A stretch of 64,000 nt of DNA, from the NCBI GenBank assembly GCA_951394045.1, contig OX595985.1:868001-932000 (forward strand). The letters run 5' to 3'. Below, in pieces: positions 19,196 through 61,486 of this stretch. Each line of letters starts with the position of its first letter. Positions within the stretch are counted from its first letter, which is position 1. Both the position numbers and the translations under genes were made by a program. The stretch comes from Nitzschia sp. DOCU1. Lineage: Eukaryota > Bacillariophyta > Bacillariophyceae > Bacillariales > Bacillariaceae. The notes under the pieces were generated by a model. The model saw only the letters and a program-made list of their open reading frames with translations, had not been told where the DNA came from and made no database searches.

Positions 19196-21976
19196 ATGAA
19201 ACTTGCATCACTTTGTGAAGTGACAAACAAAAACACCACTGCAACACATGAAGACCCGCTGATGATCTCCAAAGTTGAAATGCCATCACAAAAGGACATG
19301 GGAGCTGTGAACTCGATGTCGGTACGAGTGTCAACTCAATTCATTGTATTGAGTGGGATCTCCGCTGTACTCGTGGCCTTTTCCCTTGGACAGGTTGCAA
19401 GCGTTCGCATGGCGGAGATCCTGCAAAGTACGACTGATGTTCTCGAGAGCGGCAAAAGTTATAATGAAGCAGTCACAGGAGCATTGCCTGATCTTGGAAT
19501 CAATGCCAGCAACACCGAGGCTGCACCGAGTTCAGTGTTTTCATCCAAGTATTTCAATGCCACGAGGTCCACAGCATGTTCTCGCTGGATCACAACCGAC
19601 ATGGGCAAGCAGCACTGTGTCCGCAATCTAGACGATGACGATGACTTTTGGTGCGAAATGGATCCTTCTCTACTACAGTCTACCGAGGACGAAGACGACG
19701 ATGAAAAATCAGAACATGTTCCAAGAGGGGAGCACCTTTTGGTGGACATCGAAAACGTAAATGCCGAGTTTCTCAACTCAGAGTATCGTTTGGCCCTAGC
19801 CATGCTGAAATTGGTGGATGAATGTGGCTTGGACCTACTGTCATACCACTGTCATGGTTTGACACCCAATGGGGTTAGCTGCGCCGGCGCTTTGCTGGAC
19901 GCCCAGGTGTCGTTTCACACCTGGCCATCGGCGGGAGTCATTACTCTGGACCTGTTCATATCTGGAGATAGTTCTGCCCTGCCCATTGTGCCTCTGGTGG
20001 AAAAGTTATTCGCTATCCCTGAAAAGGGATCGAACGAGGAACCGCATATGCGTTGGGCGAATAAGCTTCGTGGGTTCCCGGACGATGGCGCCGGAGGAGA
20101 GTCGGAAGTTACGGACTTTTACGGCTTTCCAATTGGAAGAATGACGGAGTTCAAACAAAAGGTAAGTTGAAAGCGCGTTTTTTCAATTTGGCTTTTCGTT
20201 AATTAACCACGTCTGCTGTTGAAATTGTCAAGGTCATGTCTTCGGAAACTGATTTTCAGAATATAGACATTTACGATGTATTGCGCCACCAACAGAGCCT
20301 CGAAGGTTATCTAAAGTCTTTGCTGAATGATGGATCCTATGAGGCTACCCATCCACAACTCTTCGCACCAGATCGTATCGTCTTCCTCGACGGCGTCATG
20401 CAATCTAGGAGGTCGGGAGATTCTGCGTACCACGAATCACTGGTCCATCCGGCCATGTTTGCACATTCCAATCCAAAACGTGTAGCAATCATCGGCGGGG
20501 GTGAAGGAGCTACACTACGTGAGGTATTGAAACACAAAACCGTTGACAAGGTCGTGATGATTGACATTGACGCGAAGATGGTGTCTCTCTCCCGCGAGCA
20601 TCTACCCGAATGGAACGATTGCGGTATACTGGAGGGAAATGGCGGCAGTTGCTTTGATGATCCTCGTCTGGAGTTATATTCTGAAGATGCATTTGCATGG
20701 TTCTTAGATCGTTTCAGCGGCGAGGATCACGCTGTGGAGCCGTTCGACGTCATCATCATGGACGCCTTGTAAGTAGAGTCGAGTCATCGTGCACCAGCAC
20801 ATTCTCCAATGTGACCACAACTTTCTCACGACTTCTTTTTCGCCTATGACATCGAAAAAGGGATCCTCAAATTCTTATTCCTTTCGTAGAGGCACTATAC
20901 GATGGAAGCCCATTCTTGCAGGTGCTTCCAAAGGCGTTGAGCGCTCATGGTGTATTGGTTGCCCAGGTTGGCGAGGCTGCAGATCGGATATCTCCAGCAG
21001 AAAGCTATTCGGTTAACAAGAATCGAGCGAAATTTTTACGAAGCCTGGTAGATCTAGGCTTTGTAGGCATCCGCGATTACCATGAGGTATGGAGACCCCC
21101 GGGCAGATTACACTAATGGGTTGGTTTTGCGCGTTCGACTCCTCACCATCCTTCGCTTTGATTCATAGTCGGCCCATGGAGGCTTCCTCTTTCCATGGCA
21201 ATTTACAGTAGCTTTCAAGGACTCGGTTTCCCTGGACAATTGGTTCGATAATCCGGCTGCTGTCGAGTATAAGATCAGAGAGCGGACAATTCCTAACGCC
21301 GCCGATGGAGGTTCGTCGTTATTGTATTTTGATGGAGCAACGATGACTGGATACCATCATCCCCATCAAGGCAGCGAAATCGTGTTTTGTCATGCTTTTC
21401 CACACATGGCGAGTTGCCAGGATGGACATGGCTTTAACCCGGCAGTGCCGGAGTTGCCTCTCGCGGTGTTAGCTGTCAATCGCGGGAATGAAGCGGGCCC
21501 TGGTCTTCTTGCCAAAGAGGATATTCCGGCCATGTCTTACATCGGACTAGCTGATTCAGTTCAGTCCATATCCATGACAAAAAATACCTTTAAGTTGGCC
21601 ATCCAGATGAGAGCGAGGTACGCTCGAGAGGGGGCGCTGGAATTATTGCCGGGAGTTTGGCAAAGTCGAAAGGTACGTCCTTGTTGTCAACCGAATCAAT
21701 ATAGTTTGGCGCCATGACTGATCTTGCACGTACGTTCTCATCTTTTAGGGTCGAGCGGTGATGCTCGTGGACACGGCTTTGGATTGCTTCCTGAACAATG
21801 GGTGCAGAAATGTTTCGGCCGAGAGCTTGAGCTTGTTGGGGGCGCAATTTCAAAGCAGCGCCTACGACCCGGCAGCAGAACGACAGCCTTTTTCCCGTTC
21901 CGTTTTGTTGGCCTTGCGTGGATATCCCAAGGGCGAGGAACTCTTTCAGGGCGAGGTAAGAATAGCCAAGAGTTGA
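19196..21976 (+). CDS. AdoMetDC-aminopropyltransferase-SET-like fusion, copy A (decarboxylase catalytic residues lost)
   Basis: Five exons: 19196-20161, 20233-20768, 20861-21086, 21169-21672 and 21749-21976, all with GT-AG introns at positions matching copy B (58501-61486). The product is about 819 residues. ATG 19022 is an alternative start, but the extra 58 residues have no counterpart in B. Order: N-terminal TM anchor (FIVLSGISAVLVAFSLGQV), SpeD-type AdoMet decarboxylase domain, spermidine-synthase-type aminopropyltransferase, SET-like C-terminal region. The decarboxylase site reads LLDAQVSFHTWPSAG. The Ser that becomes the pyruvoyl group is Ala (codon 19901-19903, residue 236) and the catalytic Cys 20 residues on is Ser (codon 19961). 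No pyruvoyl can form, so this domain should be inactive. The aminopropyltransferase keeps FLDGVMQ, IIGGGEGATLREVLKH and DVIIMDALDP. The C-terminus is about 24 residues shorter than in B and ends 43 bp before a duplication breakpoint. Confidence 0.8.
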
Positions 21977-22018
21977 GGAAAATGCAGGGACACGGGAGGA
22001 CTGAACGTGCGGTATCAC

Positions 22019-23518
22019 CGCTAGCAAACTTGAATAAATTCGTAAGATGCATGGGAACTAGATACTACCACACTAGCCTATAGAAACTGGTTGAATCATT
22101 CCTAGCCGGCTGCCCAACACCCTAGAAGCACAAATGCCGCTGCCCAGCCATACAGCTCTACCACAAAAAGCTGTCTCATAAAGTGATCGCGTTGCTTCGC
22201 TCGAGAAGTCGCCGCGTTGTGAGCGACTTGTTGCTGATTGTCCAACCAAGTAGGCAGGAGCTGGTTTCGGAAGCTCCGGTCCCCCAATTTCGAATCGGCG
22301 TCCTCATCTTCGTCCTGGTCGGCGTCTTCCTCCGTGTCTGCTACACGTGAGTATTTGGCGTCGGTTTCCATTAGCTTGATAGTTTCTCGCTCGACAAACA
22401 AAAAGCCCCAGAGTGTGCGTCGGACAATTTCAGCGACCGGCAACAACACGCCCCAATAGGAATTCACGTCGCTGGTCGATGTGAGTACAGTACGACTCCG
22501 CGAAACATGGTAGGCAGGAATAAAGCATAACATCCAGCTGAACCTCGCAAGAGTATTGTATGCAAAGATTTTCCAATAAAAGGCTTCCGTCTTGTACAGT
22601 CGCTTCTGACGCAGTTGTATTTGTCTACAACTCGGAATCGATGCTCTTAGGCGCTGATATTGGTCAAGCATTGGCTGAACCACATACATTTGCAGCGTCA
22701 GGAGCATGCGCGAACTCGGTCGGAAACTGGAAACACGTGCACACCAAGAGTCGCTTTCGGCTTCGGCCAGTTGAATTTGGGTCTGGATCTCAAAGAGCTC
22801 CCAATCCACAAAGACGTCCCAGCATATTTGGTAGAGTACTGCCATGACAAAGCATGCAATCCACCAAGCTGATCTTCGATTCTCCGGGTGCGTAATCGCG
22901 TAGATGACCACCAACGTCGCCGAAAGGTACTTTATGGAATTCGCTTGATACGGGACGGCCACCGCTTGTTGCTGTCATAGGCTTGACGAAGCGTTTGGAG
23001 GTACTTCAACCACAGTGGCAAAATGGCAAAGGATGGCATGATGACATTATGTAGCAGCCAAGATTCTTCCAGCAAGAGGCCACTGGCGGTGAGCCCATAC
23101 TTTCCGGAAATTGTACCATAAATCACGGTCGAATAGTACGACAGGGCAAAGAATAAGTCTTGCCCCGGTCGTACCCATGACGTAATGACATCACCGATGA
23201 ATTCGTCTCTGAAGCGTACGTGGTGCAGCGGCGCCGTAAATGCAAACTTCAACGTCCCCCGAAATCGAAATCGCCGCCTCGGGGGGACCACTGTACGCAC
23301 AAGTAATACACTCAAAAAGATGATTGGAAGAATTTGGGCGGGAACATCGGATCCATCGGGCCCTTGCATGTGATTGTACGCCTTGATGAATATATGAAAG
23401 TTGAACAGAACGGGCATGCTCAAATCCAGGGCGGCACCAAAGACTGCCGGACCTGAAGGAGCATAAACCGCGTTTTGTGTGGGTGTGGTGTGGCAGAGGA
23501 TCGAAAGAAGAAAAATGG
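22019..23518. repeat. 1.5-kb segmental duplication, copy 1 of 2
   Basis: This block is nearly identical to 49338-50822, in the same orientation. Similarity begins at CGCTAGCAAACTTGAATAA, which is the end of the coiled-coil gene fragment in the other copy, and stops at GAAAGAAGAAAAATG. The two ends therefore lie inside two different genes of the source locus. Confidence 0.85.
22102..23518 (-). pseudogene. Truncated, frameshifted copy of the EXS-domain (ERD1/XPR1-like) gene
   Basis: This is the 3' two-thirds of the gene at 49417-51702. The first exon and the acidic N-terminal region are missing, because homology starts at the ATTTQN segment before APSGPAVFGAALDLSMPVLF. At about 22951-22960 the sequence reads CGGGACGGCC where the intact gene has CGGCC, a 5-bp insertion that breaks the frame between RWP and YQANSIKYL. 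Downstream the frame remains open to the normal stop (TAG at 22104-22102). Few other changes are seen, so the duplication is recent. No promoter or start was duplicated with it. Confidence 0.82.
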
Positions 23519-23558
23519 GCACCTATGCCATAGTGGTGGACGTTTCTGGGAAAATTAA

Positions 23559-23664
23559 CGCCAATCGGATGAGGTGAATTTCACGCCGCTATGGCGGCAT
23601 GCGGTGCGCCGGGCCGCCCAATTTCGTGCCGATTTCAGCGGCACGAAATACGTATTTCGTGCCG
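23559..23664 (+). repeat. Left terminal and subterminal repeats of the piggyBac element
   Basis: TIR CGCCAATC at 23559-23566; palindrome at 23585-23598. ATTTCGTGCCG occurs at 23621-23631 and 23654-23664, and its reverse complement CGGCACGAAAT at 23639-23649. Multiple oriented copies at an end are typical of transposase-binding sites. Confidence 0.75.
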
Positions 23665-23832
23665 ATTTTTTCAGCATTGGCCTTATCCTTGCCTTATCCT
23701 TACCTTATCCTTACATTATCCTTGTCGTAATAAATACGTGCTATCGAACTCCCTCCGACAATCAACCTTTTGCATCCAACACCAAACCATGATAGTATTG
23801 ATTCATTTCATTCGTTTACACTACCTAATACG

Positions 23833-24489: not shown

Positions 24490-24573
24490 AGATAGTCTAA
24501 TTATCTAGTGACCTTGATTTCAAACTAATCAATTACTAATTATCTAGTGACCTCTTTTCAAACTAATCCATTA
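24490..24573. repeat. Tandem 38-46-bp repeat between convergent transposon genes
   Basis: Two imperfect copies lie here. Each contains ATTATCTAGTGACC, then TTTCAAACTAATC, then ATTACTA. They fill the whole space between the two stop codons and may carry the overlapping polyadenylation signals. Confidence 0.5.
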
Positions 24574-27480
24574 CTATACGGTTACAGACAAAGGCGGATC
24601 CTTTCTTTTTCTCTGTTGTGGGGCTTTGCCTAGTCGTACTTTCAGCTGCGTCAGTGCCGGGTGACCGTATTGGACTGTGATCTTCCCGTTCAAATTTCTC
24701 CAAATTTGTCGTCCCAGTTCACTAGTGAGGATGTTGTGGCATGACATCCCCTTCGGGAACAACTTGTGGAGCTGGCGTTCCTCTACGTCTGTCGGGATAT
24801 GCATGTGACAAGGGCCACAACTCCGGCACAAACAAACGCTTGCTCTGATATTTTTGTTCAACCCAGTCAATCGTGCATCCAGCTGACATACTAGACATCT
24901 CCTTTCTTTATCTGGGCCTTCGACGTGACAATTTCCCGCAACATCCCCATTTGTAGTCGCTCGTGCCGGCACTCGCATTCGTCCAACCTGCGCAGTAACC
25001 TCAGCAGTACGGTCGTCCAAAGGCCCACCATCGTTCTCATCTTCGTAGTTCAAGAAATCGTCTGTGATCCATGAATAGAAATCATGTCTGCTAAAGTGTC
25101 GACGACGATTCATTCCTGGCTTGTCGACAGACAAATTCCACGCGACCAATGCGTTGAGAAGCATGCAGTCAAGCACTGCAAAGAACGCTTTTTTATACCA
25201 TTTTTTGAAGTGACCTTTTCGGGCCCAGCCGCCATGGTGCATCCTCATTTGATCTCCTCTGTCTACGCCACCCATGTACCGGTGGTAGTGACGCAACGCC
25301 CTTGGAACCCTGAGTATCCGCTTCGTGTTCCCTTCTCGTCGACCGACGTCTTCTTCTGCAACATCGGTTATACTTGAGCAAACGTTGACCACTTTATTGT
25401 CCCGCCATTGCATGCAGACGATGTCGTTCACTTTATCGTAGGCTATTCGGGATTCACCTCGTTCGCCTCTGTCCGGCATTGTCATCAGATTCTTCGGCCA
25501 ACCCTTTCTTGACTGCTTGCATGTCCCGGTTGACAGCAAGTGGCAGCGATCTCGTAGCCTCACTGCCAGTTCTGGGCACTGGTACCGATTATCCATACTT
25601 ACAGTCCGGTAGCCATGTTCCAATCCTTCGTCGTGGAGTCCCCTCTGCAATGCAGCATTTACCACAGCCTTTTGTGTTGTCGGCAGCAACTGGGCCTCTT
25701 CTTCAATGAACGAGTTACACTCGTTCTTCCCTTGGTAGACATCCATATGTAGGATGGCGTACGTCACTGAGTCTGCGAGGATGAAGAAATCGACACGGTA
25801 GGGCTGAGGCTTCGATTTGTTGTATTGGCGGACGGGACACAATCGGCTACGGCAAGAAACGCCGCCTTCGTCGAATGCCAAGTTGGGACCGGGATGAAAT
25901 GTCCTCTTCGAAGCCGCGTTGATGTTGTTCAACGCCTCCCGTAGCTGGTAACACTTGTCGCCACCGTATCCGGCAACCTTGTCCATGGGGTGGAAGGCCC
26001 CACGAATCTGCTTGAACCTTGTAAGAGACATGTATTTCTGCGCCCACCCTTTTGTACCCTCCAGCGTCTTGTCGTCTGAGTCAGAATCCAGCCCTGTGCT
26101 TAGCTTCCTGTCCTCTTGCGCGAAGTAAGCAACGTAGCCTCCACCGTCTCTTTCCTGCATCGAAATCCGCAGTAGAATCCCCAGGAAGACATGCATTTCC
26201 TTCGTTGTCACGTTCTTCCACTCTTTCCCACAGTAACTCATGTTCCGGTTCAAGTTGGGCCTAATTTTATTGCTGAAATATAGGTTGGTTTGCCTTGCAA
26301 GATTCGAAACAAAACGCACAGTCAAACCACCACACTGTCGCAGGCACTCCGTCGGGTTCTTGAACGATTGGGCAACACCCGTTTTGAGTCCAGTTGGGCC
26401 ATGGTAGAGTGGTGGACACGCATTCATGTCGGTAGTTTCATCCACCAAGTTGAAAACAAACTGTCCATCGGGGATGCCGTTGTCGTTCTGACCATCTTCT
26501 TCGTCGGATGCCTCCTCTACCTCTACTTCGATCTCGTTGGGAATATTGAGCCAGGCGTTGTCGTCTTCGTCCAAATCGTCGCCGTCCTGGGAATCCGAGT
26601 CAACGTAGCTCCCACCACTAGCATTGCTTCTAGTCGACCTAGCAGTTGACCGCGCCGATAACCCCGTGAAATTGCTGTTTGTCATCGTTGACACAGAGTC
26701 TGCCGCCGTCATCATCGCCGCCCGGGCTGCATACCTCACTGGAGTTGTGAGTACGATGGTGGCCTGTGGAGGCGGCGTGTGTTGAATAGGAGAGGCTGTT
26801 GGACCTGGTGCCTCAGTGCCAAATGACATGTGCAGGTGTTGCCGAATTCCTGCAGACCCTGCATGCTCGTAGTCGTGAGCTGCTTGTTGGAAATAGGACC
26901 GAGTGTAATCGTTGGCCGGGTACCATTCTCGAAGCAATGAACGGTCGACAGTAGCAGGCATGCCCGGGGAATGGGTGATCCAATCAACCCTGAACTGGCC
27001 ATTATTCCGCTTCTTGTTGGGACACTCGACGATTACACCAACAATCCGCCCATAAATGCCTGGAATTTGGAAGCCAGTTGTCGAGTGGAGGCGGGCGTCG
27101 CCGAGAAGTTTCTTCTTTCTGTAAGAAAATTTTTTCGAACGCTCTTTGCCGGTGGCACCAGGGTCAAGTGCCAACACACCTGCAATAGCCTCCTCCACTG
27201 CAGAACCATCACTGGCAGCATCATCTTTCTCGTTTGCAGTAGCCTCGTTGACTCCAATGCCACTGGTCGCAGCATCGTTTGTCTCATTCGGCGATGGTGG
27301 GCCCATGTCACGTGAATTGTCCGAATTTGAGACAAAAATGGATTCGGCTTGGACAAGGTCATCAATATGGTCGTCGCTAACCCGAGACCAGTCATCAGGC
27401 TCCCTGACACGCCTAGGTTTCGCCCGGATCGGTTGGAAGGAATCCTGGTGGCCCGTGGGGGCCGTTGGGGGTGCCGACAT
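24574..27480 (-). CDS. piggyBac transposase (DDE_Tnp_1_7)
   Basis: Single-exon, 968 residues, ATG in good context (ACCATGT) at 27480. The first 340 residues are an acidic, disordered extension. The transposase core occupies about residues 350-800. The three catalytic aspartates are in family-typical settings: D537 in NLAFDEGG, D630 in VSMDNRYQCPEL, and D740 with D743 in GGVDRGDQM. The flanking helices (FKKWYKKAFFAVLDCMLLNA) are also as expected. A C-terminal cysteine-rich domain (CLVC near 862, VCLCRSCGPCH near 882-892) would bind zinc and recognise the element ends. piggyBac enzymes cut and paste precisely at TTAA. All key residues are present and the frame is intact. The long N-terminal extension makes it larger than insect piggyBac (594 residues). 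Confidence 0.92.
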   Translation of the reverse strand: MSAPPTAPTGHQDSFQPIRAKPRRVREPDDWSRVSDDHIDDLVQAESIFVSNSDNSRDMGPPSPNETNDAATSGIGVNEATANEKDDAASDGSAVEEAIAGVLALDPGATGKERSKKFSYRKKKLLGDARLHSTTGFQIPGIYGRIVGVIVECPNKKRNNGQFRVDWITHSPGMPATVDRSLLREWYPANDYTRSYFQQAAHDYEHAGSAGIRQHLHMSFGTEAPGPTASPIQHTPPPQATIVLTTPVRYAARAAMMTAADSVSTMTNSNFTGLSARSTARSTRSNASGGSYVDSDSQDGDDLDEDDNAWLNIPNEIEVEVEEASDEEDGQNDNGIPDGQFVFNLVDETTDMNACPPLYHGPTGLKTGVAQSFKNPTECLRQCGGLTVRFVSNLARQTNLYFSNKIRPNLNRNMSYCGKEWKNVTTKEMHVFLGILLRISMQERDGGGYVAYFAQEDRKLSTGLDSDSDDKTLEGTKGWAQKYMSLTRFKQIRGAFHPMDKVAGYGGDKCYQLREALNNINAASKRTFHPGPNLAFDEGGVSCRSRLCPVRQYNKSKPQPYRVDFFILADSVTYAILHMDVYQGKNECNSFIEEEAQLLPTTQKAVVNAALQRGLHDEGLEHGYRTVSMDNRYQCPELAVRLRDRCHLLSTGTCKQSRKGWPKNLMTMPDRGERGESRIAYDKVNDIVCMQWRDNKVVNVCSSITDVAEEDVGRREGNTKRILRVPRALRHYHRYMGGVDRGDQMRMHHGGWARKGHFKKWYKKAFFAVLDCMLLNALVAWNLSVDKPGMNRRRHFSRHDFYSWITDDFLNYEDENDGGPLDDRTAEVTAQVGRMRVPARATTNGDVAGNCHVEGPDKERRCLVCQLDARLTGLNKNIRASVCLCRSCGPCHMHIPTDVEERQLHKLFPKGMSCHNILTSELGRQIWRNLNGKITVQYGHPALTQLKVRLGKAPQQRKRKDPPLSVTV

Positions 27481-27676
27481 GGTGGGGTTTTAATTTTTTG
27501 GCAAACTTCGCCCCGACAGGCTCACTTTTTGTGTCCGATAGGAGGGCGGGAACCTAAAACACGGAGCTCTCCGGCATGACCAACCCTAGGTAAAATTGCA
27601 CGCTCTTTCGTACGGTCGGATCTGTTTCGACGTTGGAGAGAGTTAGGCCAACGATTGGGCGAAGATAAAATTTGGT

Positions 27677-49354: not shown

Positions 49355-50822
49355 ATTCGTAAGATGCATGGGAACTAGATACTCGATATGGCTTATAGAA
49401 ACTGCTTGAATCATTCCTAGCCGGCTGCCCAACACCCTAGAAGCACAAATGCCGCTGCCCAGCCATACAGCTCTACCACAAAAAGCTGTCTCATAAAGTG
49501 ATCGCGTTGCTTCGCTCGAGAAGTCGCCGCGTTGTGAGCGACTTGTTGCTGATTGTCCAACCAGGTAGGCAGGAGCTGGTTTCGGAAGCTCCGGTCCCCC
49601 AATTTCGAATCGGCGTCCTCATCTTCGTCCTGGTCGGCGTCTTCCTCCGTGTCTGCTACACGTGAGTATTTGGCGTCGGTTTCCATTAGCTTGATAGTTT
49701 CTCGCTCGACAAACAAAAAGCCCCAGAGTGTGCGTCGGACAATTTCAGCGACCGGCAACAACACGCCCCAATAGGAATTCACGTCGCTGGTCGATGTGAG
49801 TACAGTACGACTCCGCGAAACATGGTAGGCAGGAATAAAGCATAACATCCAGCTGAACCTCGCAAGAGTATTGTATGCAAAGATTTTCCAATAAAAGGCT
49901 TCCGTCTTGTACAGTCGCTTCTGACGCAGTTGTATTTGTCTACAACTCGGAATCGATGCTCTTAGGCGCTGATATTGGTCAAGCATTGGCTGAACCACAT
50001 ACATTTGCAGCGTCAGGAGCATGCGCGAACTCGGTCGGAAACTGGAAACACGTGCACACCAAGAGTCGCTTTCGGCTTCGGCCAGTTGAATTTGGGTCTG
50101 GATCTCAAAGAGCTCCCAATCCACAAAGACGTCCCAGCATATTTGGTAGAGTACTGCCATGACAAAGCATGCAATCCACCAAGGTGATTTTCGATTCTCC
50201 GGGTGCGTAATCGCGTAGATGACCACCAACGTTGCCGAAAGGTACTTTATAGAATTCGCTTGATACGGCCAGCGCTTGTTGCTGTCATAGGCTTGACGAA
50301 GCGTTTGGAGGTACTTCAACCACAGAGGCAAAATGGCAAAGGATGGCATGATGACATTATGTAGCAGCCAAGATTCTTCCAGCAAGAGACCGCTGTCGGT
50401 AAGCCCATACTTTCCGGAAATGGTACCATAAATCACGGTCGAATAGTACGAGAGGGCAAAGAATAAATCTTGCCCTGGTCGTACCCATGACGTAATGACA
50501 TCGCCGATGAATTCGTCTCTGAAGCGTACGTGGTGCAGCGGCGCCGTAAATGCAAACTTCAACGTCCCCCAGAATCGAAATCGCCGACTCGGGGGAATCA
50601 CTGTACGCACAAGTAATACACTCAAAAAGATGATTGGAAGAATTTGGGCAGGAACATCGGATCCCTCGGGTCCTTGCATGTGATTGTACGCTTCGATGAA
50701 TAGATGAAAATTGAACAGAACGGGCATGCTCAAATCCAAGGCGGCACCAAAGACTGCCGGACCTGAAGGAGCATAAGCCGCGTTTTGTGTGGTTGTGGCA
50801 GAGGATCGAAAGAAGAAAAATG
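49338..50822. repeat. 1.5-kb segmental duplication, copy 2 of 2 (probable source)
   Basis: Nearly identical to 22019-23518. This copy lies inside an intact gene and so is the likely donor. The small difference after TAGATACT (CGATATGGCT here, ACCACACTAGCC there) shows some post-duplication change. Confidence 0.85.
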
Positions 50823-51702
50823 TCCCCAGACGCGCCAGAAGTGGATGATTGTCTCTCCATCGTTGAACAGGGCCAGAGGGTGAGGTGGATCCCAACTCGG
50901 CATCATCGTTTGCCGAAGATTCATGATTCGATGTTCGGTGCAATAAACCTTGCGTCTGGATAACATTTTCGTCTTCGCCATCATCCATGTCCCAGCTTCT
51001 CGGTGGCTCGGTTGTTCCTTCATTGTTGCCACCAGTACCAGTGGTATCTGGCTGAGATGAATCTCCATCGATGGACGACGCGTTTTCGATTCCAATCAAT
51101 CCAGCTTCATCTTCAGAATGTGCTCTACGTTGACGAACAGAAGGTGACGATGAGTTCATTCCCAAGCCTCCTCCACCGGCGGCTAAATCAGCCTCGGATT
51201 TCGTTGTTTGAGATTGTCGTATGGGGCTGGATGCCGAACGGTGCAAAGGTTGCGAATTTCGATGATGACTCGAATGTGACGACTGCGCTCCTACTGTATC
51301 CGAGGATAACTGTTGTTCGGGCATTTCAATCAAAGGACCTTCGACTCCATGTTCGTGTCCATGTAATGTTCCCGGAAGAAACAAAAGTTCATCGCAGGCT
51401 ATTCCATTCCGCCGCCAAGTACGCAACGAATACGCACACATCATTAATGTAAAAGCTAACAATGCGGGGCCTGCAGAAACAAAACGGCAGACTTAGATTC
51501 ACCGAGCAAATATCAACATATCTACGACTGCTCAATAATGTGCCTTACCTCGATAGACTCGGAGAGATGTTATATCATGTGTTTTTGTTGTCAAGTCATA
51601 GGCCAGGATACAGCCTAATATGAACAACGCCGTAGCCTTGGGCTTTAGGACCCGCTCTGAAATGGCGAAACTGCCGATAGCCGCCACTACCGAAACATCC
51701 AT
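49417..51702 (-). CDS. EXS-domain membrane protein (ERD1/XPR1/SYG1 type)
   Basis: Two exons, 51702-51549 and 51470-49417. The 78-bp intron (GTAAGG...CTGCAG, phase 1) joins DITSLRVYR to GPALLAFTLMM, giving 735 residues. Exon 1 supplies TM1 (ATALFILGCILAYDL), followed by TM2. A variable acidic/Ser-rich region follows (about residues 85-270). The EXS domain occupies the C-terminal half, with several TM helices and the signatures YQANSIKYLSATLVVIYA, WIACFVMAVLYQICWDVFVD, AYNTLARFSWMLCFIP and RRTLWGFLFVERE. There is no SPX domain, so it is closer to yeast Erd1, a Golgi phosphate recycler, than to SPX-EXS phosphate exporters. The tail has an Asp/Glu cluster and a last TM. A truncated duplicate lies at 22102-23518. 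Confidence 0.85.
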
Positions 51703-52421
51703 TGTTGAATGATGCCAGAGTGCTGAGCGGGATGAATATTATTGTAACCGTGGCCTCGAATCCGATCCAACGGTACTGTCGCAGCAGCACCTTATTTTAC
51801 AGTTCACTTATCCCTGGGGACCCGAGCAAATTAAAAGCAATCGATTTCCTTCGACGTATCAGAAAGCACTAAGGTCTACAAAATCCCTCAAGAGGCGCGG
51901 AGGGACAACTATAAAATAGAATGCCAGTAGCGACCGTCGACTACCTTGCAGTGTATTAAGACTGGGATTGTTGCTTTCCTCCAGCATTTCTCCCCCTGTC
52001 ATCATCGTGACACACTCTTTGCATTGCTTCCGTGCCTACACCTCTCCGTGTGTGACCCTCGGAATAAATCTACGTAGATGCAGTACCGGCGCGGGTACGT
52101 GGCCGCCAACGGATAGTTCCCAATCGACTACTTTGAAAGCATAATTCCAACAGCCTGTTGTTGACGGACAGACCTCGAAAAGATGCGAACGCGCACGCGC
52201 GACCCGTTTCATTCGACTGACTCCTTCGACTATTGGACGACATCCCACTCTATCCGATGAGCGCAGACCACCCACCATGACTTTTGATGTGGTGGCACCC
52301 TGTTGTATGTGATGAGAACACCTCCACCTACCCTCCCTTCATTCAATAGTCTACGCTGTATCAGAATCGGCGCCTCTCTGCTCTACTAGAAACGATATAA
52401 GTGTTATTGAGCAGCAGTATC
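51703..52421. promoter_or_regulatory. Divergent intergenic region EXS gene/SYF1
   Basis: About 720 bp between the start of the EXS gene (-) and the SYF1 ATG (+). No credible ORF; an 80-residue frame at 52036-52278 (-) lacks coding character. ACGATATAAG at 52391-52400, about 20-30 bp before the SYF1 ATG, is TATA-like but too close to be confident. Confidence 0.35.
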
Positions 52422-55196
52422 ATGCCCGAGAATGCTACTGACTCGTCGGCACAATCAGCGCTGTTATTTTCGTTGATATCGGGCACTCCCGCGTTGTTGC
52501 ACCAAGAAGATGCCGTAGGACGAGCTCCTTACAATGTGACTGCCTGGGTGCACTACCTAGACACTATTGATGAAGTCATTTCCGAACAAAAATCAGCAGC
52601 ATCCATGATCAAAGTCCGCGAGCTAGTAGGAAAACGCGCTGTCCACCACTTGCCCAAATCCTACAAATTGTGGAAGATGCACTGGGAATTTTGTCGGAAA
52701 CACATGTTGGATGAAGACGAAGGAAGCCTCCACAAAATGTGGGAGCGTTCGCTAGTGACCTTGCACAAGTTTCCTCGTGTGTGGATCGAGTACTTAGAGT
52801 GGGCGCACGAACAAGAAACGTCGTTGTCGTCGATCGATCACCCAACGCAGTTACGGCACTTGTGCAATCGAGCGTTGGAAGCCATTCCCGTCACACAACA
52901 TGACAAGATATGGCCCGTCATTCTCAAATATTATCAATGCACCACCACGACGTGGATCCCCAAAGAAACAAAATTGAGTTTGCTACGACGCTACATACAA
53001 TTCAATCCAGCAGCAACCAAGGAAGTGGCAGACTTTCTCGCCAATGAGTTGCAACACTGGGGCGAGGCAGCGTTGTTGTACGTCGATCTCTTGAATCAAG
53101 CGCAAGCCGTACAGCGGCAAGAATTGTGGATGGCATTGGCGCAAATTTGTACTCGTCATCCTGTCGAACAAGTAGGAATTGACTGGGATGTTCTGGTACG
53201 ACGTGCCCTCGAAACGAAACACTATCAGGAAATGGAAGGCGTCTTGTGGAATCAACTCGCCGATGCATGGATTCGACGTGGAGAATTTCAACTAGCTCGA
53301 AGTGTTTATGAAGAAGCACTGGAAAATGTCTCGAAAGTTCGGGATTTCACAATTCTGTTGGACGCATATTTGCAGTTTGAAGAGGGGCTTTTAGAAGCCA
53401 TTATGGAAGCAGCTGGAGATGCGGACGAAGAAGAAGAGAGCGAGGAACAAGCCGAGACTGATCCCGACGACTGGGACTTGCTACTTCCTGGTAGAGGAGA
53501 TGATGATGACACAACCAAGAAGAATAACATGTCGGATTTGGAACTAGCCCTGGCCAGGGCGGAAGATTTGACTGCGCGACAACCGATAATGTTGAATCGC
53601 GTCCTCTTGCGACAGAATCCTCACGATGTTGCAGAATGGCTAAAGCGGGCCCGGCTGTATCAAGAAAAGGATCAATTGGCTCAAGCTCAGGCCGCCTTGG
53701 AAGAAGGGCTAAGAACAGTTCTCGCTCGACGAGCGATTGGCGGCTCTCCTAGCCAAATGGTGACAGAGCTGCTCAAGCTCTACGAATCAGATCCTGATAA
53801 TGGAGTCGCCAAGGCACGGGATTTAATGGATCGAATCTGCAATCAGTGGGTGTATGAATTCAAACACACTGATGATCTTGCAGAATGCCACGCTGCCTGG
53901 GTAGAGTTGGAGCTACGGCAGGAGTCTTGGGACGAAGCACTTGATATCATTCGAAGCAGTGTCGTAGTGCCCTTATCGACGCCCGAACGCTCCATCCCCA
54001 AAATGGTTCGAGGCTTGGCGAAATCCTTACGATTATGGGACTTGCTCTTGGATCTCGAAGAGTCCTTGGGTACGGTCCAAACCACGAAGGATGCTTACAA
54101 TAGAGCTATCGAACAACGAGTCGCGACGCCGCTACATATATTGAACTATGCAACCTTTTTGACCGAGCACAAGTATTTTGAAGAGTCATTCTCTGCCTAC
54201 GAGCGCGGCATTGAGCTTTTCCAATTCCCAGGTGTCAAAGTTATTTGGAAAGCGTATATAGATGCATTCCTGAAGCGTTATCAAGGCACCAAGGTGGAGC
54301 GAACACGCGATTTGTTTCACCGGTGCTTGGATGTCTGTCCACCGGAAGAATGCACGGAATTCTTTTTGATGAATGGCAAATTCGAAGAAGACCACGGTTT
54401 GACTAAGCGGGCATTGAGTGTCTACCGTGACATGTGCAAAAAAGTACCAGACCAGGAAAAGTATACTGCCTATCAACTTTTTATTGCCAAGACAACCAAG
54501 TACTTGGGTCAGACAGCCACAAGAGATATCTACCAGTCGGCTATACAGGAGTTGAGCGATGCACCAGCATCTCAGCTATGTTTGGACTTTGCCAAGATGG
54601 AAACGTCTCTTCAAGAAATCGACCGTGCCCGGGCCGTGCTAACGTATGGAGCCCAAATGGCAGATCCGCGACGCAATGAGCAATACTGGAAGGAATGGAA
54701 TGAATTTGAAATTGAGCACGGCAACGAAGAAACCTTTCGTGAAATGCTTCGTATCAAGCGAAGTGTCGAGGCTTCTTTCTCCACTGTCAACTACAACGCT
54801 GCCGAGATGAGCCAAACGTCGATCAAAGATACGCTGAGCAACGAAGAGGCCATGAGAATGATTGCAGAGCGGGAAGGGGTCGAATTGGATCCACAGGTGA
54901 CTTCGCCAGCAACTGGGGTCAGCGGCTTTGTTGGTGCCAAACGAACGGCTGGGGCGGCGCAGTTAGACGACGTGGAAGAGCGCGTAGCAAAGCTTCGCAA
55001 GGCTACGGCAGAAGCTGCGGTGCAGCCAGAGATCAATGACGATGAAGATGAAATCGACATTGATGATGACATGGCCGGGGAGGAGGAAGAAGAAGAAGGT
55101 GCAGCTGTTAAGGATGTGAAGACAAAAGCTGTCCCAGCTGCGGTGTTCGGCGGGCTTGCGAAACTAGCAGAAGACGAGGACAAGAAAAAGCAATAG
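52422..55196 (+). CDS. SYF1: Pre-mRNA-splicing factor SYF1 (XAB2 orthologue)
   Basis: Single-exon, 924 residues from ATG 52422; the preceding seven codons open with GTG and are not used. The protein is a solenoid of HAT (half-a-TPR) repeats, with typical W..Y/E patterns such as NVTAWVHYLDTI, SYKLWKMHWEFC, FPRVWIEYLEWA, VKVIWKAYIDAF and EQYWKEWNEFEIEHGNEE. After the last repeat the hallmark FSTVNYNAAEM is present, and near the end the conserved VPAAVFG. SYF1/XAB2 is a scaffold of the Prp19/NTC complex in the spliceosome. Acidic insertions (residues about 340-370 and 870-895) lengthen it relative to human XAB2 (855 residues). Intact; the neighbours are unrelated housekeeping genes. Confidence 0.93.
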   Translation: MPENATDSSAQSALLFSLISGTPALLHQEDAVGRAPYNVTAWVHYLDTIDEVISEQKSAASMIKVRELVGKRAVHHLPKSYKLWKMHWEFCRKHMLDEDEGSLHKMWERSLVTLHKFPRVWIEYLEWAHEQETSLSSIDHPTQLRHLCNRALEAIPVTQHDKIWPVILKYYQCTTTTWIPKETKLSLLRRYIQFNPAATKEVADFLANELQHWGEAALLYVDLLNQAQAVQRQELWMALAQICTRHPVEQVGIDWDVLVRRALETKHYQEMEGVLWNQLADAWIRRGEFQLARSVYEEALENVSKVRDFTILLDAYLQFEEGLLEAIMEAAGDADEEEESEEQAETDPDDWDLLLPGRGDDDDTTKKNNMSDLELALARAEDLTARQPIMLNRVLLRQNPHDVAEWLKRARLYQEKDQLAQAQAALEEGLRTVLARRAIGGSPSQMVTELLKLYESDPDNGVAKARDLMDRICNQWVYEFKHTDDLAECHAAWVELELRQESWDEALDIIRSSVVVPLSTPERSIPKMVRGLAKSLRLWDLLLDLEESLGTVQTTKDAYNRAIEQRVATPLHILNYATFLTEHKYFEESFSAYERGIELFQFPGVKVIWKAYIDAFLKRYQGTKVERTRDLFHRCLDVCPPEECTEFFLMNGKFEEDHGLTKRALSVYRDMCKKVPDQEKYTAYQLFIAKTTKYLGQTATRDIYQSAIQELSDAPASQLCLDFAKMETSLQEIDRARAVLTYGAQMADPRRNEQYWKEWNEFEIEHGNEETFREMLRIKRSVEASFSTVNYNAAEMSQTSIKDTLSNEEAMRMIAEREGVELDPQVTSPATGVSGFVGAKRTAGAAQLDDVEERVAKLRKATAEAAVQPEINDDEDEIDIDDDMAGEEEEEEGAAVKDVKTKAVPAAVFGGLAKLAEDEDKKKQ

Positions 55197-55346
55197 CGTG
55201 TTCAATATTCTTCCTTCAGCCACCTTTTTCGCTGCGTAGCCACTTGGCATAGTTGTAAGTCGGTACAGGCTCTAGCAAGTAGTCCCGGGTTCACGCAAGC
55301 TGTCTTTCAGAAAAAATGAATTGCTACCTTAGTAATGTACGTTGAT

Positions 55347-57965
55347 CTATTCCACGTCGATATCCGCCTCGACATACAACTTAAACAAATCCCTTTCAAC
55401 TTTGGACGGCGGGTGCTTCAAATAAGTCTGTTGATTCTTTTTGGAGAACCGAATCTGGCTGTACTTTTCGAAGAATTCCCGATAGAGCGGAAGAAAGACT
55501 CCTGCGACTTCCTGTTGCAGTAAATCCCGCAAGCGAGGATCAACGACACACAAAAGCTGGTGCTCCTCCATGAGGCGCTCGAAATCTTCGTTGAATCCGC
55601 TGAAACGACTCTTGATTAATCGACCACTGTCAAGTGACAAGACGACATCATTCTTCTGATATTCTAACTCATCGTGCTCGACGCTGCGGAAGTAAGAGGG
55701 CAGAAGAGATTAGAATCAAAATAAAGGCGGCGTTAGCGTCACAAGTCTTCATGACCAGAATGTTTTCAAGCGATTACTTACCTGGTCAAGTGCGTGTTCA
55801 ACACTTCCCAGTGGCCAAGGTACTTGTTCTTTTCGGTTTCGAAGAGTTTGTTAACCTTGTCCACGAACCAAGAACTTTCAATTCGGAATTCAGACGTTTG
55901 GGTTGTCTGTCCAAGTTGGGGACCAAGTTCATCACGCAGAAAGAAAGTGTTGTTCATCATGAACATGCTGCTACGAGCTTGACCAAGATCTCCTGAATGC
56001 TTCGTATAGTTTAGCGCCTTCCCCTTGAGAGAGTTGACCAGACGCATGACCAAGAAGCGCACAAAAGAATCCAATTCACCCGCCTCTTCTCCCATGTTGG
56101 GATCCCATGGAAGCTGGCGACGCTTCGACACGGACTTGTAAGCGCTGTCAAAGGTTGCTATAGCGCGAATGGCTCGAACGACGTCGATCGTCAAAGGCGC
56201 CACGCGAGCGTCCTTGACACGCTGGGCCGACCCCTTGACCGGATCTTCTTGGATCGCCTTGGCCAGATTCTCCAAGGTTCGTGCAGCGTTCTTTACCGTC
56301 GTGCGGTGAATGGCAATGCATAGAATCGCTGCAAGACTAGGTTGTTCTTCGTTTCCGTCTCCAACAGGCATATCACAAAGCTTCGCTAGTGATGGCCCCA
56401 ACATACGAACACCATCCAACATTCGAAGTCCAGCAGCTGCAGCTGCCGCCGTTTGTCGCACAGTGAGAGGTGGTGCCTCGCCCTTTCCGCCTCCCGAAGC
56501 GTGTCCAATACACCCTTCTTTTAAGAAGACCGTCTCAATGATATCCATAGTCTAATGTTGAAAGAAATCATTGTAGGTAAGTCTCGGTTGATATTTGGAA
56601 AACTCCATTCTCGAGACACAATAACGTACCTTATCTACCACACATGCCACGACATACGAGTAGGATGCTGCACAAGCCTTGCGATAGTAGGGTGAGATGT
56701 CATCATTGACAGCATCTTCATCCGCGATTTTGGTCAACGAAGGCGAGATGACTGTTCGATAGACATTCTTTTCTCCAGCCACCACCACCATGGCGTGTTC
56801 CAAACACCGAACGGCATCTCGTGCGGCGACATCGGCGGGTTCCATAATGGCGGACGAAAACTTTTCGGCATTTCGCTTGCGCTCTTGCTTGATCCGGCGA
56901 TAGTAGTTGTCAATACTTGTAAATGCCACTTGCTTGCGTGCTTCTCCATAGGCATCGACGTGTGGAAATCCCGTCTTGAGAGGACGTAAGACCAAATTGG
57001 TGTATCCTCCACTCCCCACCTTTTCGGTACGAACGACGCGATTGGCGGGGATACCAAAGTGATATGCCAAGCCCGGAGGCTCATTCTTGGGTGGCGGTCC
57101 TAGCTGATACCCATTGCCACTCAAGGCTTCAAAGATACCACGAAGTTCTCGCACAAGACGAGGCTCGACTGGTTGATACTCTTCATATTCACCAATGCTT
57201 CTGAGCAAATCACGATTCTGCAAAGCAGCCGATAATCGATCTCGAGTCTAATACACATGACAAAAAATCAAAGTGAGAATCAAAATACGATGATAATCCA
57301 AAAGCATCCACAATCTGCGTTTCACGTACCTGTTCTGCCGTTTCGGTGGCAGGAGTAACGTGTGCTTCTCCTTCCTGTTTTACAACACGCTTGATTCTCA
57401 CTGCTTGCCCCGCGTCTGTCAAATGAAAGGATGCTAAAGTACACATGGACGAGACCCCCATTTGATGCACTCGTTCGAGCGAAGCCAGCGCTGCTGCAGT
57501 GGACCTCCAATGCTTGCGGTCGATAAAGAACTCGTAGGCATCCCTGATAATTTCCATGGAATCCGCGGCCGCATAGACATCCTGTTCGGACAAGACCACA
57601 TTACTGTTTTTTCCTTCTCCGTCTTCAAATGGATTTCTTCTTGCCTTTTTTGCCTGGCCGCTCTTTTCATTTTGCATTTGTACGACTCCTCGTTTGAGTC
57701 TATCAATGGCGGGCTCACAATCTCGAATGGTATCGAATTTCTCGCGGGCTTCGTTCATCAATACCAGAGTAGCCCCGAGATTATTACTAGCTTTTGAGAG
57801 TAGACTGGAAGCATCAGACGCCGGACTCGTCAAAGAATCTAATTGTCTGGCGCGTTTGGTGAGTTGATCGCAACAGACACACGCTTCGGTGGTCGATGCC
57901 TTCATTTTGCGGAGGGCTTTGCCCAGCGCTTCAATCCGGCGCTGGGATTCCGTGGTAGCGCCCAT
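55347..57965 (-). CDS. EXO70: Exocyst complex subunit EXO70
   Basis: Four exons: 57965-57330, 57247-56630, 56551-55782 and 55683-55347. GT-AG introns of 82, 78 and 98 bp give a product of 786 residues. The start is ATG 57965 (MGATTESQRRIEALGKALRK); the frame upstream has only TTG. The N-terminal 100 residues are a coiled coil. The rest is the elongated helical-bundle fold of Exo70. Recognisable features are FFLRDELG, then SSWFVDKVNKLFETEKNKYL near residue 655, and the C-terminal VVDPRLRDLLQQEVAGVFLP, LYREFFEKYSQIRFSK and YLKHPPSKVERDLFKLY. Exo70 binds PI(4,5)P2 and the plasma membrane and tethers secretory vesicles. Divergent from fusion copy B (535 bp apart). Confidence 0.88.
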
Positions 57966-58500
57966 GGTCGACGACTTGTGTGTACTACTCAGACAATGGT
58001 GACAAGGGCAGTGACGGGTGGAACCAAGAAAAGCAATGAGTGACAAGCTAAGGTAAGGGCCGATTCAAAAAAAAGTCCATGGTGTCCCGCCTGCATGCAT
58101 GGCGAAATCTTTGTTTCCAACGCGTCTCGTCCTGCCGCCGAACGGTCGGAAGGCGGCCGGACCGGAATGAACGAGCATTGGCATCCAGGGCCTTTTATGT
58201 ATGTACGTATTGTAGGCCATGTAGTAAGTACACTGAACGAACGACATGTTCGACTCCACGGCATCAAAGCACGCCGACCGACCCCGCGCGCGCTATCGGA
58301 GTTGTTCAGGACCGTTGCGTCCGCCCATGATGATGATGCCAACATCTAACAAAGCCTCTCGTCCATCATTGATTGGTTGCCCTCAACTCATCTTCATGGT
58401 GGTGCATTGCACTCCCTTGCCTTATTGTTGTTCTTGTGTTAGCTTGTTGTACCTTTACCTTGCTAGACATAATTAGAGCATACTTCACACACAAGCCATC
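57966..58500. promoter_or_regulatory. Divergent intergenic region EXO70/polyamine fusion B
   Basis: 535 bp that must hold both promoters. A GC-rich CCGCGCGCGC stretch lies near 58285. No ORF of quality and no palindrome stood out. Confidence 0.35.
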
Positions 58501-61486
58501 ATGGCGGCAACCAGAAGCAAAACATCTCGCGAGCCCAAGACCTCCAACGGGCACCATCATAAGGAAGCTTCTGCCAATGGGCATTCCTCCTCCCCAGCAG
58601 CAGCAGCAGCAGCAGCAGCCCATCCTGGCTGGATGGTTCGAATCTCGCAGCGATTTGTAACGTTATCGCTACTGGCTTGTACATTGGTAGCCTTTGCTGT
58701 TGGACGGACCGCCCGTATGCTGCTATTTATTAATCCTCAAGTTCAATTCATGAAGGACCTTTTAGCAGCAACAACAACAACTAATGATTCTTCCGAACCA
58801 CTTGACCACACGTACAATATAATGAAACTGCCTAATCCCGTCTTGAAGAACGGCAAATTACCACCACCGACCTTGTACACATCCAAGAATTTTGATACGG
58901 CTCGATCGGCAGCTATTAATTCACGATGGGTAGTGACCGAACCAGGAACGGCATTTACCAGTCAAGATGCCATTGTCAAGGATGCAGAAGAAGAATGTGA
59001 TGCGGCTGCGAATGATGGTAGTTGTGCTACTTGTAGTCGGGGGAAACCTGTCAAATCAGACGGCAATAACAAGGAAGAAGAAGAAGTTCATTTGCCGGTC
59101 GGTCAACACTTGCTCATGGATATTCGTCATGTGGATGCCGCGTTTTTGGCATCGGAAGAACGACTGGCCAATGCCATGTTGGATGTCGTCGGGGAATGCG
59201 GTTTGACTCTACTCAGCTACCATTGTCATGGCTTGATTCCGGCGGGAGTCAGTTGCGTCGGAGTCTTGTTGGAAAGTCACGTGTCCTTTCACACGTGGCC
59301 AACCGAAGGAGTCATTACGCTGGACTTGTTCACATGTGGTCCCAACTCCTTGCTGCCCATTGTACCAAAGGTGGAAGAATTATTCAGTGTTCCAAGGCCA
59401 GGGGCGACGCATTTGATGGACATGCCGGAAGCAATATGGGCGTATAAATGGAGAGGATATGGAAACGAGAGCAAAGAGAAAACGGCGGAATTGACCGATC
59501 TATTCACCTTTCCGATTGGAGCCATGACCGAGTATAAAAAAGAGGTGCGTATACTTTGTTGCTGGACGGGGAGAGTGAATGGACGCAGGTGCACGCAAGT
59601 ATGCTTATCTGAGGTTCTGCCTTTTTCTATAGATTGCGTCTGTATACATTGGTTCTGATCGAATTGATATCTACGATGTTCTTCGGTCTCCGTATCAAAC
59701 ACTGGCATCGTACAAGCGTCTCTTGGTGGAGGAGACATCGTATGAAAGGCAACACCCAGAGGTGTTTCAACCCGACCGCATCGTTTTTACGAATGGAGTC
59801 TTGCAGTCGCGTCGTTCTTCCATGGCCGCCTTTTACGAAATGTTTGTCCATCCTGCCATGTTTACTCATCACAACCCCCGACAAGTTGCAGTGGTGGGAT
59901 TCGGAGACGGAGCCATTTTGCGGGAAGTCTTGAAACACAAGTCGGTGGAGCAAGTTGTATTGTTGGATTACGATGAAGCCTTGTTGAACTTGACGACGCA
60001 ACACTTCCCGGAATACAATGACTGCAGTTTCTTGATGGGGCCCATCAAAAATTGTCTCGACGACCCGCGTGTCATAACATACTATGGTGATACATTAGAT
60101 TGGTTTAATGACGAAAACAAAAAGACGGATGTCAGGTTTGATGTCATTATTGTGGATGAACTGTAAGCCAGTCGCGTGCCGACGACAACAGGGTCTCCGT
60201 TGGAGTGGTTGCTAACCGTTTCGTGTCTTTCACTCGTTTGTTGTAGGGAACTGATCACGGGAGACGACGAAGTCCTAGGTATCCTAGAGACACTTTGTGA
60301 CCACATGACGGACGAGGGTGTCCTTGTAGCGAGTATGGGGTATGCCCCTGCGAGATTCTCGGCAGCGATAGCTGCAGAGATTGCAAAGGGCTTTTCGGAT
60401 ACATTAGTAAAGGCAGGCTTTGAAAGTGTGAGGGATTATGAAGAGGTATGTTGGGCCGTTTTGTAGATGGACATTGCCACTTTGTTTGAAATATTACTCA
60501 ACAGGATTCTTCGTTTCCGCAACCAGGGACATCTTGGATACGAATGGCCATGGAGATTTGCGCTTGCTTTCAAAGATTTCGACACGAGAGCAACATGGTT
60601 TCGCAATGAGGCCGCTACGAAAATCGAAATCCAGAAGAGAATCATTCAACCTTCCGATGGGTCTTTGCCATTAGCCTACTTTGACGGTGCGACTCACAGC
60701 GCCATTTTGTATCCATCGCGAGCAAGTGAGATTGAATTCTGTCGCCGCAGTAATGCACCGAAGGAATGTGGAGCCAGCGGACATGGATTTGATCCTGAAA
60801 TCCCTAACTTTATGATCGATTCCGCGTTGGAAGCGAGGAGAGGAGAATCAAATGATTTGCATGTCTATGCCAAAGTCGACATCCCTCTTCCGTCTTATGT
60901 TGGTCTTGAAGAAATCTCGACACCAATTTACTTTCCACCATCAAGCTACCACACATTTTTAGGAATCGGATCAAAGTATTATGGATGGAATGGACATGCG
61001 ATGATCCCTTTTGAGGCAGCATATTCTCACGTCTATGGTCATCTTGTAAGTTGTCGTCATCGTCGTCATGCTAACAAAAGAAAAATGAATACCAAGACTA
61101 TCCTGTTTGCTCACCGCTCATTATCTTCCCATGGACAGGGGGAGTTGGAAGCAAGAATTCCATCAACACTAGAACTCTTCATCGACCACGGCTGCAAGGG
61201 ATCTAGCAACTTTGGGAGCCCTTTTAAATTAACGGAAGAAGAGGCCGATCCTGATTCTATTGCTGACGAAATCTGGGAGTTTTATGTGGGGAAAGATCGA
61301 ATTTACAATCCGGCAGCCGAACGCCTCCCCTTCTTTTATGACCATGCTGTCCCGCTAAGAGCCGTGCAGGCAGGCGAACAGATCCTTGTCAATAAGCTTG
61401 CGAGTACTGGCCTTAACGAATTTGCCTGGAAAGCTGAAGTTCTGGCCCTTCGAGAGAAGTGCTCCAGAACATCAGCCAATATGTAG
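58501..61486 (+). CDS. AdoMetDC-aminopropyltransferase-SET-like fusion, copy B (decarboxylase intact)
   Basis: Five exons: 58501-59544, 59633-60162, 60247-60445, 60527-61045 and 61139-61486, at the same phases as copy A. The product is 879 residues. The N-terminus has a poly-Ala run (CAG/GCA repeat near 58600) and a TM anchor (FVTLSLLACTLVAFAVG). The SpeD-type decarboxylase domain reads LLESHVSFHTWPTEG. Ser259 is the expected pyruvoyl precursor, His264 is present, and Cys279 (DLFTCG) is the expected proton donor, so self-processing should work. The aminopropyltransferase domain is diverged: FTNGVLQ instead of LDG, GFGDG instead of GGGDG, and VDELEL instead of the usual D-x-x-D-P. The C-terminal region (YVGLEE, FIDHGCKGSSNFG, NPAAERLPFF) resembles a SET fold and may methylate amines. 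Such fusions in diatoms have been proposed to make the long-chain polyamines of the silica wall. Confidence 0.83.

Follow-up and report, generated by a model that had tools for sequence, protein, structure and literature searches.

The stretch analysed here, called the window, comprises 64,000 bases of the Nitzschia sp. DOCU1 genome (C1:868001-932000) and carries, 36.5 kb apart and both on the plus strand, two genes for candidate fusion enzymes of polyamine synthesis. Gene A (19196..21976; 819 amino acids) and gene B (58501..61486; 879 amino acids) each consist of five exons and are predicted to encode, from the N terminus onward, a hydrophobic anchor, an S-adenosylmethionine (AdoMet) decarboxylase domain (AdoMetDC, here SpeD), an aminopropyltransferase (APT) domain and a SET-like tail. 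By their residues, the SpeD domain looks dead in A and intact in B, and the APT domain is canonical in A and divergent in B. Spliced by hand, the exons of A lie at 19196-20161, 20233-20768, 20861-21086, 21169-21672 and 21749-21976, and those of B at 58501-59544, 59633-60162, 60247-60445, 60527-61045 and 61139-61486. All eight introns (20162..20232, 20769..20860, 21087..21168 and 21673..21748 in A; 59545..59632, 60163..60246, 60446..60526 and 61046..61138 in B) have GT-AG ends, both reading frames are intact, and the phases are 0, 2, 0 and 0 in either gene, the second intron falling at the same site in both, inside the DALDP motif of A. The four introns of A were recovered independently by spliced alignment with the B protein as query, and Pfam matched AdoMet_dc and Spermine_synth domains in both products, with PF02675 (AdoMet_dc) scores of 57.6 bits for A and 74.1 bits for B against a cut-off of 25. 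The splice models and Pfam matches thus confirm the shared domain order and intron phases that a preliminary description of this DNA had proposed.

The ends of the proteins are less sharply defined. The most hydrophobic 19-residue segment, judged by hydropathy only, scores 2.09 at residues 49-67 of A and 1.76 at residues 52-70 of B; given this similarity, we infer that the two proteins may reside in the same compartment and share decarboxylated AdoMet (dcAdoMet) there. PF00856 (SET) was not matched in the tails of A and B at E 1e-3; the tails do align with the SET region of relatives that carry a precomputed PF00856 match. Two motifs of this region, an N-H pair and a final Tyr, mark active SET enzymes. 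The N-H pair stands before G/A-C in 11 of the 19 rows shown, at a place where A reads NN and B reads DH, and the final motif has its Tyr, mostly as N-Y-L, in 12 of the 19 and in neither A nor B.

The class 1b SpeD active site is a triad of Ser, His and Cys, the roles of which are known from Ser63, His68 and Cys83 of the Thermotoga maritima AdoMetDC. Alignment and codons agree that B has all three, as Ser259 (AGT, 59275..59277), the predicted pyruvoyl-forming residue, His264 (59290..59292) and Cys279 (TGT, 59335..59337), and that A has kept the His alone: Ala236 (GCC, 19901..19903) stands at the pyruvoyl-Ser position, His241 (19916..19918) is retained, and Ser256 (TCT, 19961..19963) occupies the position of the Cys. 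The preliminary description had read these residues exactly so and had predicted an inactive decarboxylase site in A; the change from Ser to Ala is the very one engineered in the non-processing S63A mutant of T. maritima (1tmi), and Ala236 aligns with the Ser of 1vr7 and the Ala of 1tmi. The triad is otherwise nearly constant: S-H-C was found in 162 of 167 rows, made up of A, B and the 165 relatives among the matches listed for the two (the best 120 of 911 and the best 120 of 664), and A is among the five exceptions. Whether its loss of Ser and Cys recurs in other diatoms, a question raised with the first description, leads to a single close candidate among those 165 relatives, P0017 of Cylindrotheca fusiformis, which reads G-H-S.

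The altered domain is nevertheless very likely folded. A structure model of the first exon of A gives a block at SpeD residues 181-290 with predicted local distance difference test (pLDDT) scores of 89-96, and seven chains match it in fold at E <=0.001: two of 1vr7, 2iii, 1tlu, 1tmi, 3c6k (human spermine synthase) and 1mhm (potato AdoMetDC). The mutant 1tmi is matched in sequence as well as in fold. Judged by its residues, this SpeD is not expected to generate the pyruvoyl cofactor in the known way. Three ways in which the loss could be apparent were considered. A substitute Ser at the cleavage site was rejected: the nearby Ser of VSFH is shared with B and with many live relatives, and Ala236 aligns with the Ala of 1tmi. 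An alternative exon restoring the Ser is unlikely, the codon lying well within a 966-base exon, 258 bases before the donor site, and a search of the genome (52.1 Mb in 63 contigs) with that exon as DNA query returned a single copy, A itself. A sequencing error is unlikely as well, since two separate codons differ, as do adjacent residues (E to D and H to Q).

The APT motifs of A (20389..20864) comprise Asp375 in LDG, Tyr388 in YHES, Glu413 in GGGEG, Asp433, and Asp499 and Asp502 in DALDP, and present the complete residue set of an active APT (PF01564), with the acids E-D-D-D. Those of B (59792..60250) read TNG with Asn402, FYEM with Phe415 and Tyr416 (FYE for YHE), GFGDG with Asp440, then Asp460, and DELEL, split by the second intron, with Asp523 and Glu526; the contrast between more canonical motifs in A and TNG, GFGDG and DELEL in B had been described correctly. 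B still scores 71.7 bits against Spermine_synth, yet in addition to these changes the loop after the Asp motif, the gate loop, is shorter than in A. By sequence, the best solved match of the A domain is the Thermus thermophilus APT (1uir/3anx, E 1e-30); that of B is weaker (E 8.5e-20). The human spermidine synthase uses Asp173 as proton acceptor and Tyr79 to help place the amine, next to a gate loop formed by residues 174-182 (PMC12812037). Compared with the solved spermidine synthases, B has kept the Asp, as Asp523, and has Phe at the conserved Tyr, positions that on our reading of the motif would correspond to the human Asp173 and Tyr79. On the other hand, acids are kept at all four acidic positions examined (Asp440, Asp460, Asp523 and Glu526), the last being the third residue after Asp523 in a gap-free reading and Asp in the relatives P0121, P0122 and P0124. 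B, P0121 and P0122 share TNG, FYE and GFGDG to the letter, P0124 almost so, and a model of P0121 (mean pLDDT 72.4) still matches spermidine synthases in fold. We consider the APT domain of B altered, perhaps dead; the preliminary claim of a complementary loss of active sites holds for A and, for B, has to be softened to an altered transferase with its four acids in place.

A and B belong to a larger family in this genome, where profile searches gave at least eight AdoMet_dc and at least 23 Spermine_synth matches, several exons of a single gene being counted separately in some cases. Besides the two, gene models were made for four more genes with this domain order. L011 (C1:762 kb), 125 kb from A, reads S-H-C, GGGEG and DALDP, and its intron phases equal those of A and B when a 69-base fourth intron, found by inspection, is counted; L009 (C1:267 kb) reads S-H-C, GGGEG and DAMEP and has introns unlike those of A and B. 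By these motifs both look bifunctional. In L010 (contig C7), an S-H-C SpeD is joined to an APT with the loop FGSTTGA and no Asp motif, and in L012 (C6) the SpeD site is destroyed and the APT motifs are canonical. C1, a contig of 5.86 of 52.08 Mb, holds four of the six genes; independent placement would give this with a chance of about 0.002, which suggests local duplication. Contig C2 carries a class 2 AdoMetDC gene (PF01536 matches) and a strong spermidine synthase match, a frame of 342 amino acids scoring 243.6 bits. As L011 and L009 look bifunctional and the class 2 enzyme is present, A need not depend on B. Contig C15 has long single frames (L013:2064-6506 and L014:3296-6400) in a different order, with the SET-like part toward the N terminus and the APT followed by a degenerate SpeD, in which, judged by eye, the Ser and His are replaced, for example in EGYVVARVWP.

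The histories of the two genes turn out to be separate. Among the matches listed, the nearest relatives of B are P0121 and P0122, with 62% identity across 99% of the part used in the search, and the named proteins among the nearest matches come from Nitzschia, Pseudo-nitzschia and Cylindrotheca. Our main tree has 49 rows (A, B, L011 and 46 chosen from the 165 relatives) and was built with the active-site columns removed and with L009, L010 and L012 excluded as long branches. In it A is sister to a group of P0001, P0002, P0003 and L011 (support 97/87), and B lies inside a 14-row clade (100/100), nearest to P0121, P0122 and P0124 (100/98), so that A and B are not sisters and the suggestion that they are each other's partner is not supported: the next of kin of A is the L011 group, and B belongs to an older clade. 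A quick tree of 95 rows (the six genes of this genome and 89 of the 165 relatives) again has the clade of B, now with 25 rows and a Shimodaira–Hasegawa-like approximate likelihood ratio (SH-aLRT) support of 95, and gives A no resolved position; L009, L010 and L012 have long branches there, and L009 and L010 still have them in the 179-row quick tree described below. As all four sisters of A keep S-H-C, its loss falls most simply on its own branch and looks recent; the end branch measures 0.50, against 0.20 for L011. A clade of A and P0017 with a shared loss is absent from the best tree and is not rejected (approximately unbiased test, p 0.115), and both proteins read IS where live rows read TC.

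Rates of change in the two domains were compared on the fixed 49-row tree with 91 SpeD and 207 APT columns, active-site columns left out, and 100 column bootstraps. The SpeD/APT ratio of branch lengths is 0.25 (bootstrap 0.18-0.49) in the clade of B and 0.69 (0.51-1.16) in the 28 other Bacillariaceae-type rows, which include A and P0017, giving a ratio of ratios of 0.37 (0.27-0.53). The pattern indicates that constraint on the APT of B became weaker or different long ago and stayed tight on its SpeD; the divergence of this APT is older than the loss in A and common to the clade. For A against its four sisters, the ratio of ratios is 1.05 (0.43-2.75), an interval so wide that it can be said only that no relaxation of SpeD is seen; the corresponding value for P0017 relative to the 28 rows is 2.55 (1.17-4.89). 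Either the SpeD of A is still useful as a fold, or its site was lost recently.

To what extent such one-sided change is general was assessed in 217 rows, the six genes of this genome and 211 relatives drawn from the matches listed for A, B and L012; 179 had both domains and were classed, and 38 were set aside for missing parts. APT was judged by three positions, the loop acid, the first Asp and the residue three after it. Both domains are live in 138 rows, SpeD is live and APT dead in 21, SpeD is dead and APT live in 19, and both are dead in one (P0140). By this rule B, P0121, P0122 and P0124 count as APT-live, a gap-free reading keeping the acid there; when alignment columns are counted instead and a gap is scored, the figures are 134 intact in both, one with a conservative change, 24 with APT broken, 19 with SpeD broken and one with both. 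One of the 20 SpeD-dead rows, P0193, lacks only the Cys, with Ser and His still in place. Strict mutual exclusion of the two losses was considered and rejected on the 138/21/19/1 split of the 179 rows (Fisher p 0.26, the rows being related). On the best quick tree of these rows, SpeD has changed state at least nine times and APT at least four; counted against each other, the one-sided groups take three changes each, two forced by well-supported branches. One-sided change is likely to be recurrent, its exact number not being firm with 57 of the 176 inner branches open.

Both kinds of one-sided protein can be found side by side. L012 and P0166-P0169 form a five-row SpeD-dead clade (SH-aLRT 99). 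In Cylindrotheca fusiformis, a classic silaffin species, P0017 is SpeD-dead and P0128 APT-dead, which singles out a reciprocal pair; in Nitzschia inconspicua, P0211 is SpeD-dead, P0123 is APT-dead, and P0016 and P0019 are intact. The idea that a pair of genes has split the two activities is thus upheld in part: the two one-sided classes coexist in this genome and in two other diatoms, but A and B are not dedicated to each other. In the sister group of B, 26 relatives among P0123-P0165 have the glycine loop of the APT replaced by LLNCGGGAALREVLKH, identical in 18 of the 26, and the loop is often followed by D-[DE]-x-Y-Y where other proteins have DALDP. The conservation of this loop hints at a new role of the transferase domain rather than decay.

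Overall, the residues, gene structures, phylogeny, domain rates and recurrence were computed, and from them we would describe one diatom family of anchored AdoMetDC-APT-SET fusions, the members of which have repeatedly kept one activity and lost or altered the other. On the most economical view the fused, bifunctional form would be ancestral, since two bacterial counterparts were bifunctional when assayed (PMC12803844), and paralogues would have specialised afterward. We give a probability of roughly 0.6 to the reading that A is monofunctional, an APT carried by a dead SpeD scaffold and fed with dcAdoMet in trans, and that B is mainly an AdoMetDC supplying it. The SpeD of A, lacking a cofactor and keeping its fold, would most likely take the scaffold role in the dimer that the equivalent domain has in human spermine synthase, and the neighbouring APT would use dcAdoMet made by other family members; B would act mainly as AdoMetDC, with an APT that is inactive or of changed acceptor specificity. 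In this picture the two proteins may share a location and take part in long-chain polyamine synthesis.

Several points weigh against this reading. The sample of relatives, consisting of best matches to A, B and L012, is biased, and the shortage of rows dead in both domains is not significant by the Fisher test given above. With its four acids and GxGxG pattern retained, the APT of B may be active. A very recent loss would equally leave the SpeD of A unrelaxed, the interval on that ratio being wide, and in the comparison of A with L011 synonymous divergence (dS) has reached saturation in all three of SpeD, APT and tail. The identity of the decarboxylase is also assumed: S-H-C is no proof of AdoMetDC activity, and some SpeD homologues, including one from the stramenopile Nannochloropsis, decarboxylate arginine or ornithine instead (PMC10407285).

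Among the alternatives, it is possible, if on balance doubtful, that the APT of B is neofunctionalised toward another acceptor, such as a silaffin lysine or a long polyamine, so that the family consists of specialised transferases rather than of split activities. The four kept acids of B, the Asp at the fourth position in its three nearest relatives, the uniform rather than scattered TNG, FYE and GFGDG of these proteins and the loop conserved in 18 of the 26 motif-matching proteins of the sister group all speak for it. Working in the other direction are the short gate loop, the replacement of the Tyr79 equivalent by Phe and of its neighbour by Tyr, and the fast evolution of APT relative to SpeD; furthermore, two of the four acids are lost in the sister group, and the Asp motif is lost in L010.

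A heterodimer like that of the prozyme, in which the dead SpeD of A pairs with the live SpeD of B or L011 and activates or regulates it, is unlikely. Such a mixed dimer would work with a single SpeD site and with either one APT site or two. In Trypanosoma brucei, the dead prozyme does activate AdoMetDC by forming a heterodimer with it, and in bacteria AdoMetDC half-enzymes are joined by way of their sheets (PMC5201418); the predicted fold of the A domain is intact, and over 91 columns it is 79% identical to L011 and 73% to B. However, the nearest paralogue of A is L011 and not B, homodimers would do equally, and 138 of the 179 rows look live in both domains, so that, as far as the residues go, there is no general need for a dead partner. 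With Foldseek the prozyme complex (5tvf and 5tvm) is matched at E 0.002, which does not surpass the matches to other class 2 enzymes such as those of potato and human, and is therefore not specific.

That A is a decaying recent duplicate, its SpeD loss being the first step to a pseudogene, is quite unlikely: its nearest relatives do keep S-H-C, the similar close loss in P0017 is not clearly orthologous, the end branch is long and the tail degenerate, but the gene stays open through all 819 codons, with four GT-AG introns and intact APT motifs, its nonsynonymous divergence from L011 in APT is 0.22 with dS saturated, no relaxation of SpeD is detected, and the five-row clade with L012 persists elsewhere with SpeD dead and APT live. 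Rather improbable, too, is a two-way prozyme system in which paralogues of one fusion scaffold, SpeD-dead ones and APT-dead or altered ones, form mixed dimers by way of a common SpeD dimer interface and dcAdoMet is handed across the chains; if true, the choice of partners would set chain length or the acceptor, polyamine or silaffin.

The remainder of the window contains other features. Between A and B, a tandem array of 20.5 kb (27854-48314) repeats a 204-base (68-codon) unit about 99 times, with 82% matches, and has long forward open frames; it may be a giant repeat-protein gene or a satellite-like array, and short Pfam matches inside it (glutaredoxin-like and others) look spurious. On the minus strand, a frame of 968 amino acids (24574-27480) matches DDE_Tnp_1_7 (Transposase IS4, E 1.7e-45), an EXS-family protein (E 1.6e-43) lies at 49417-51462, and an Exo70 C-terminal match at 55778-56548; a pre-mRNA splicing factor SYF1/CRNKL1-like protein is found at 52401-55196.

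Diatom silica is precipitated by long-chain polyamines, the synthesis and variation of which the fusions may help to explain. A reading of the fusions domain by domain yields testable classes, bifunctional, transferase-only and decarboxylase-only, and shows which paralogue to assay for which activity. Michael (2011; FEBS Lett 585:2627) reportedly described diatom fusions with a catalytically dead AdoMetDC, in alternatively configured fusions; a dead AdoMetDC in such proteins would thus already be known. The C15 frames, in the order SET-APT-SpeD, resemble those alternative configurations, whereas the dead SpeD of A sits in the standard N-terminal position. In their hydrophobic stretch, SpeD and APT, and with a tail that aligns with the SET region, A and B resemble the diatom AdoMetDC-APT(-SET) fusions, with the same proposed role in long-chain polyamine synthesis (PMC6356823, PMC3820600, PMC12803844); such fusions are candidate makers of these polyamines, still to be characterised (PMC6356823), and Nitzschia inconspicua has 32 fusion proteins with an APT domain, for which further study is called for (PMC12803844). 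In the available parts of five papers, the fusions are treated as one group, without classes of live and dead domains (PMC6356823, PMC12803844, PMC10968388, PMC12533330, PMC12029483). No report of a class with live SpeD and degenerate APT was found in the open-access literature searched, which did not include Michael (2011); on that basis this class, like the repeated loss on one side, seems to be a new form within a known kind of fusion.

Several known systems share parts of this design. The solved APT chains of T. thermophilus and related forms (1uir, 3anx, 7xif and 6bq2), of which the APT of A aligns best with 1uir/3anx (loop GGGEGATLREVLKH), have no SpeD domain. Trypanosomatids share with this genome the presence of a dead AdoMetDC paralogue beside live ones. 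Their prozyme is not known to have an APT domain. It is of the eukaryotic type (PF01536), unlike A, whose domain is PF02675; activation by heterodimer formation has been demonstrated there (PMC5201418) and would be conceivable for A. The bacterial AdoMetDC-APT fusions have the same two domains in the same order, and the two that were assayed each showed both activities (PMC12803844), whereas A and B are each altered in one. As a precedent for A, human spermine synthase seems closer than the prozyme. The N-terminal domain of animal spermine synthase comes from a class 1b AdoMetDC, has lost its activity and derives from a bacterial AdoMetDC-APT fusion (PMC12803844), and removing it from the human enzyme abolishes dimer and function (PMC3585406). 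At the level of residues A resembles this arrangement, a dead class 1b SpeD before an APT with intact motifs; it differs in that the loss took place in another lineage, in the added anchor and SET-like tail, and in a SpeD domain that, at 57.6 bits, is still recognisable by sequence.

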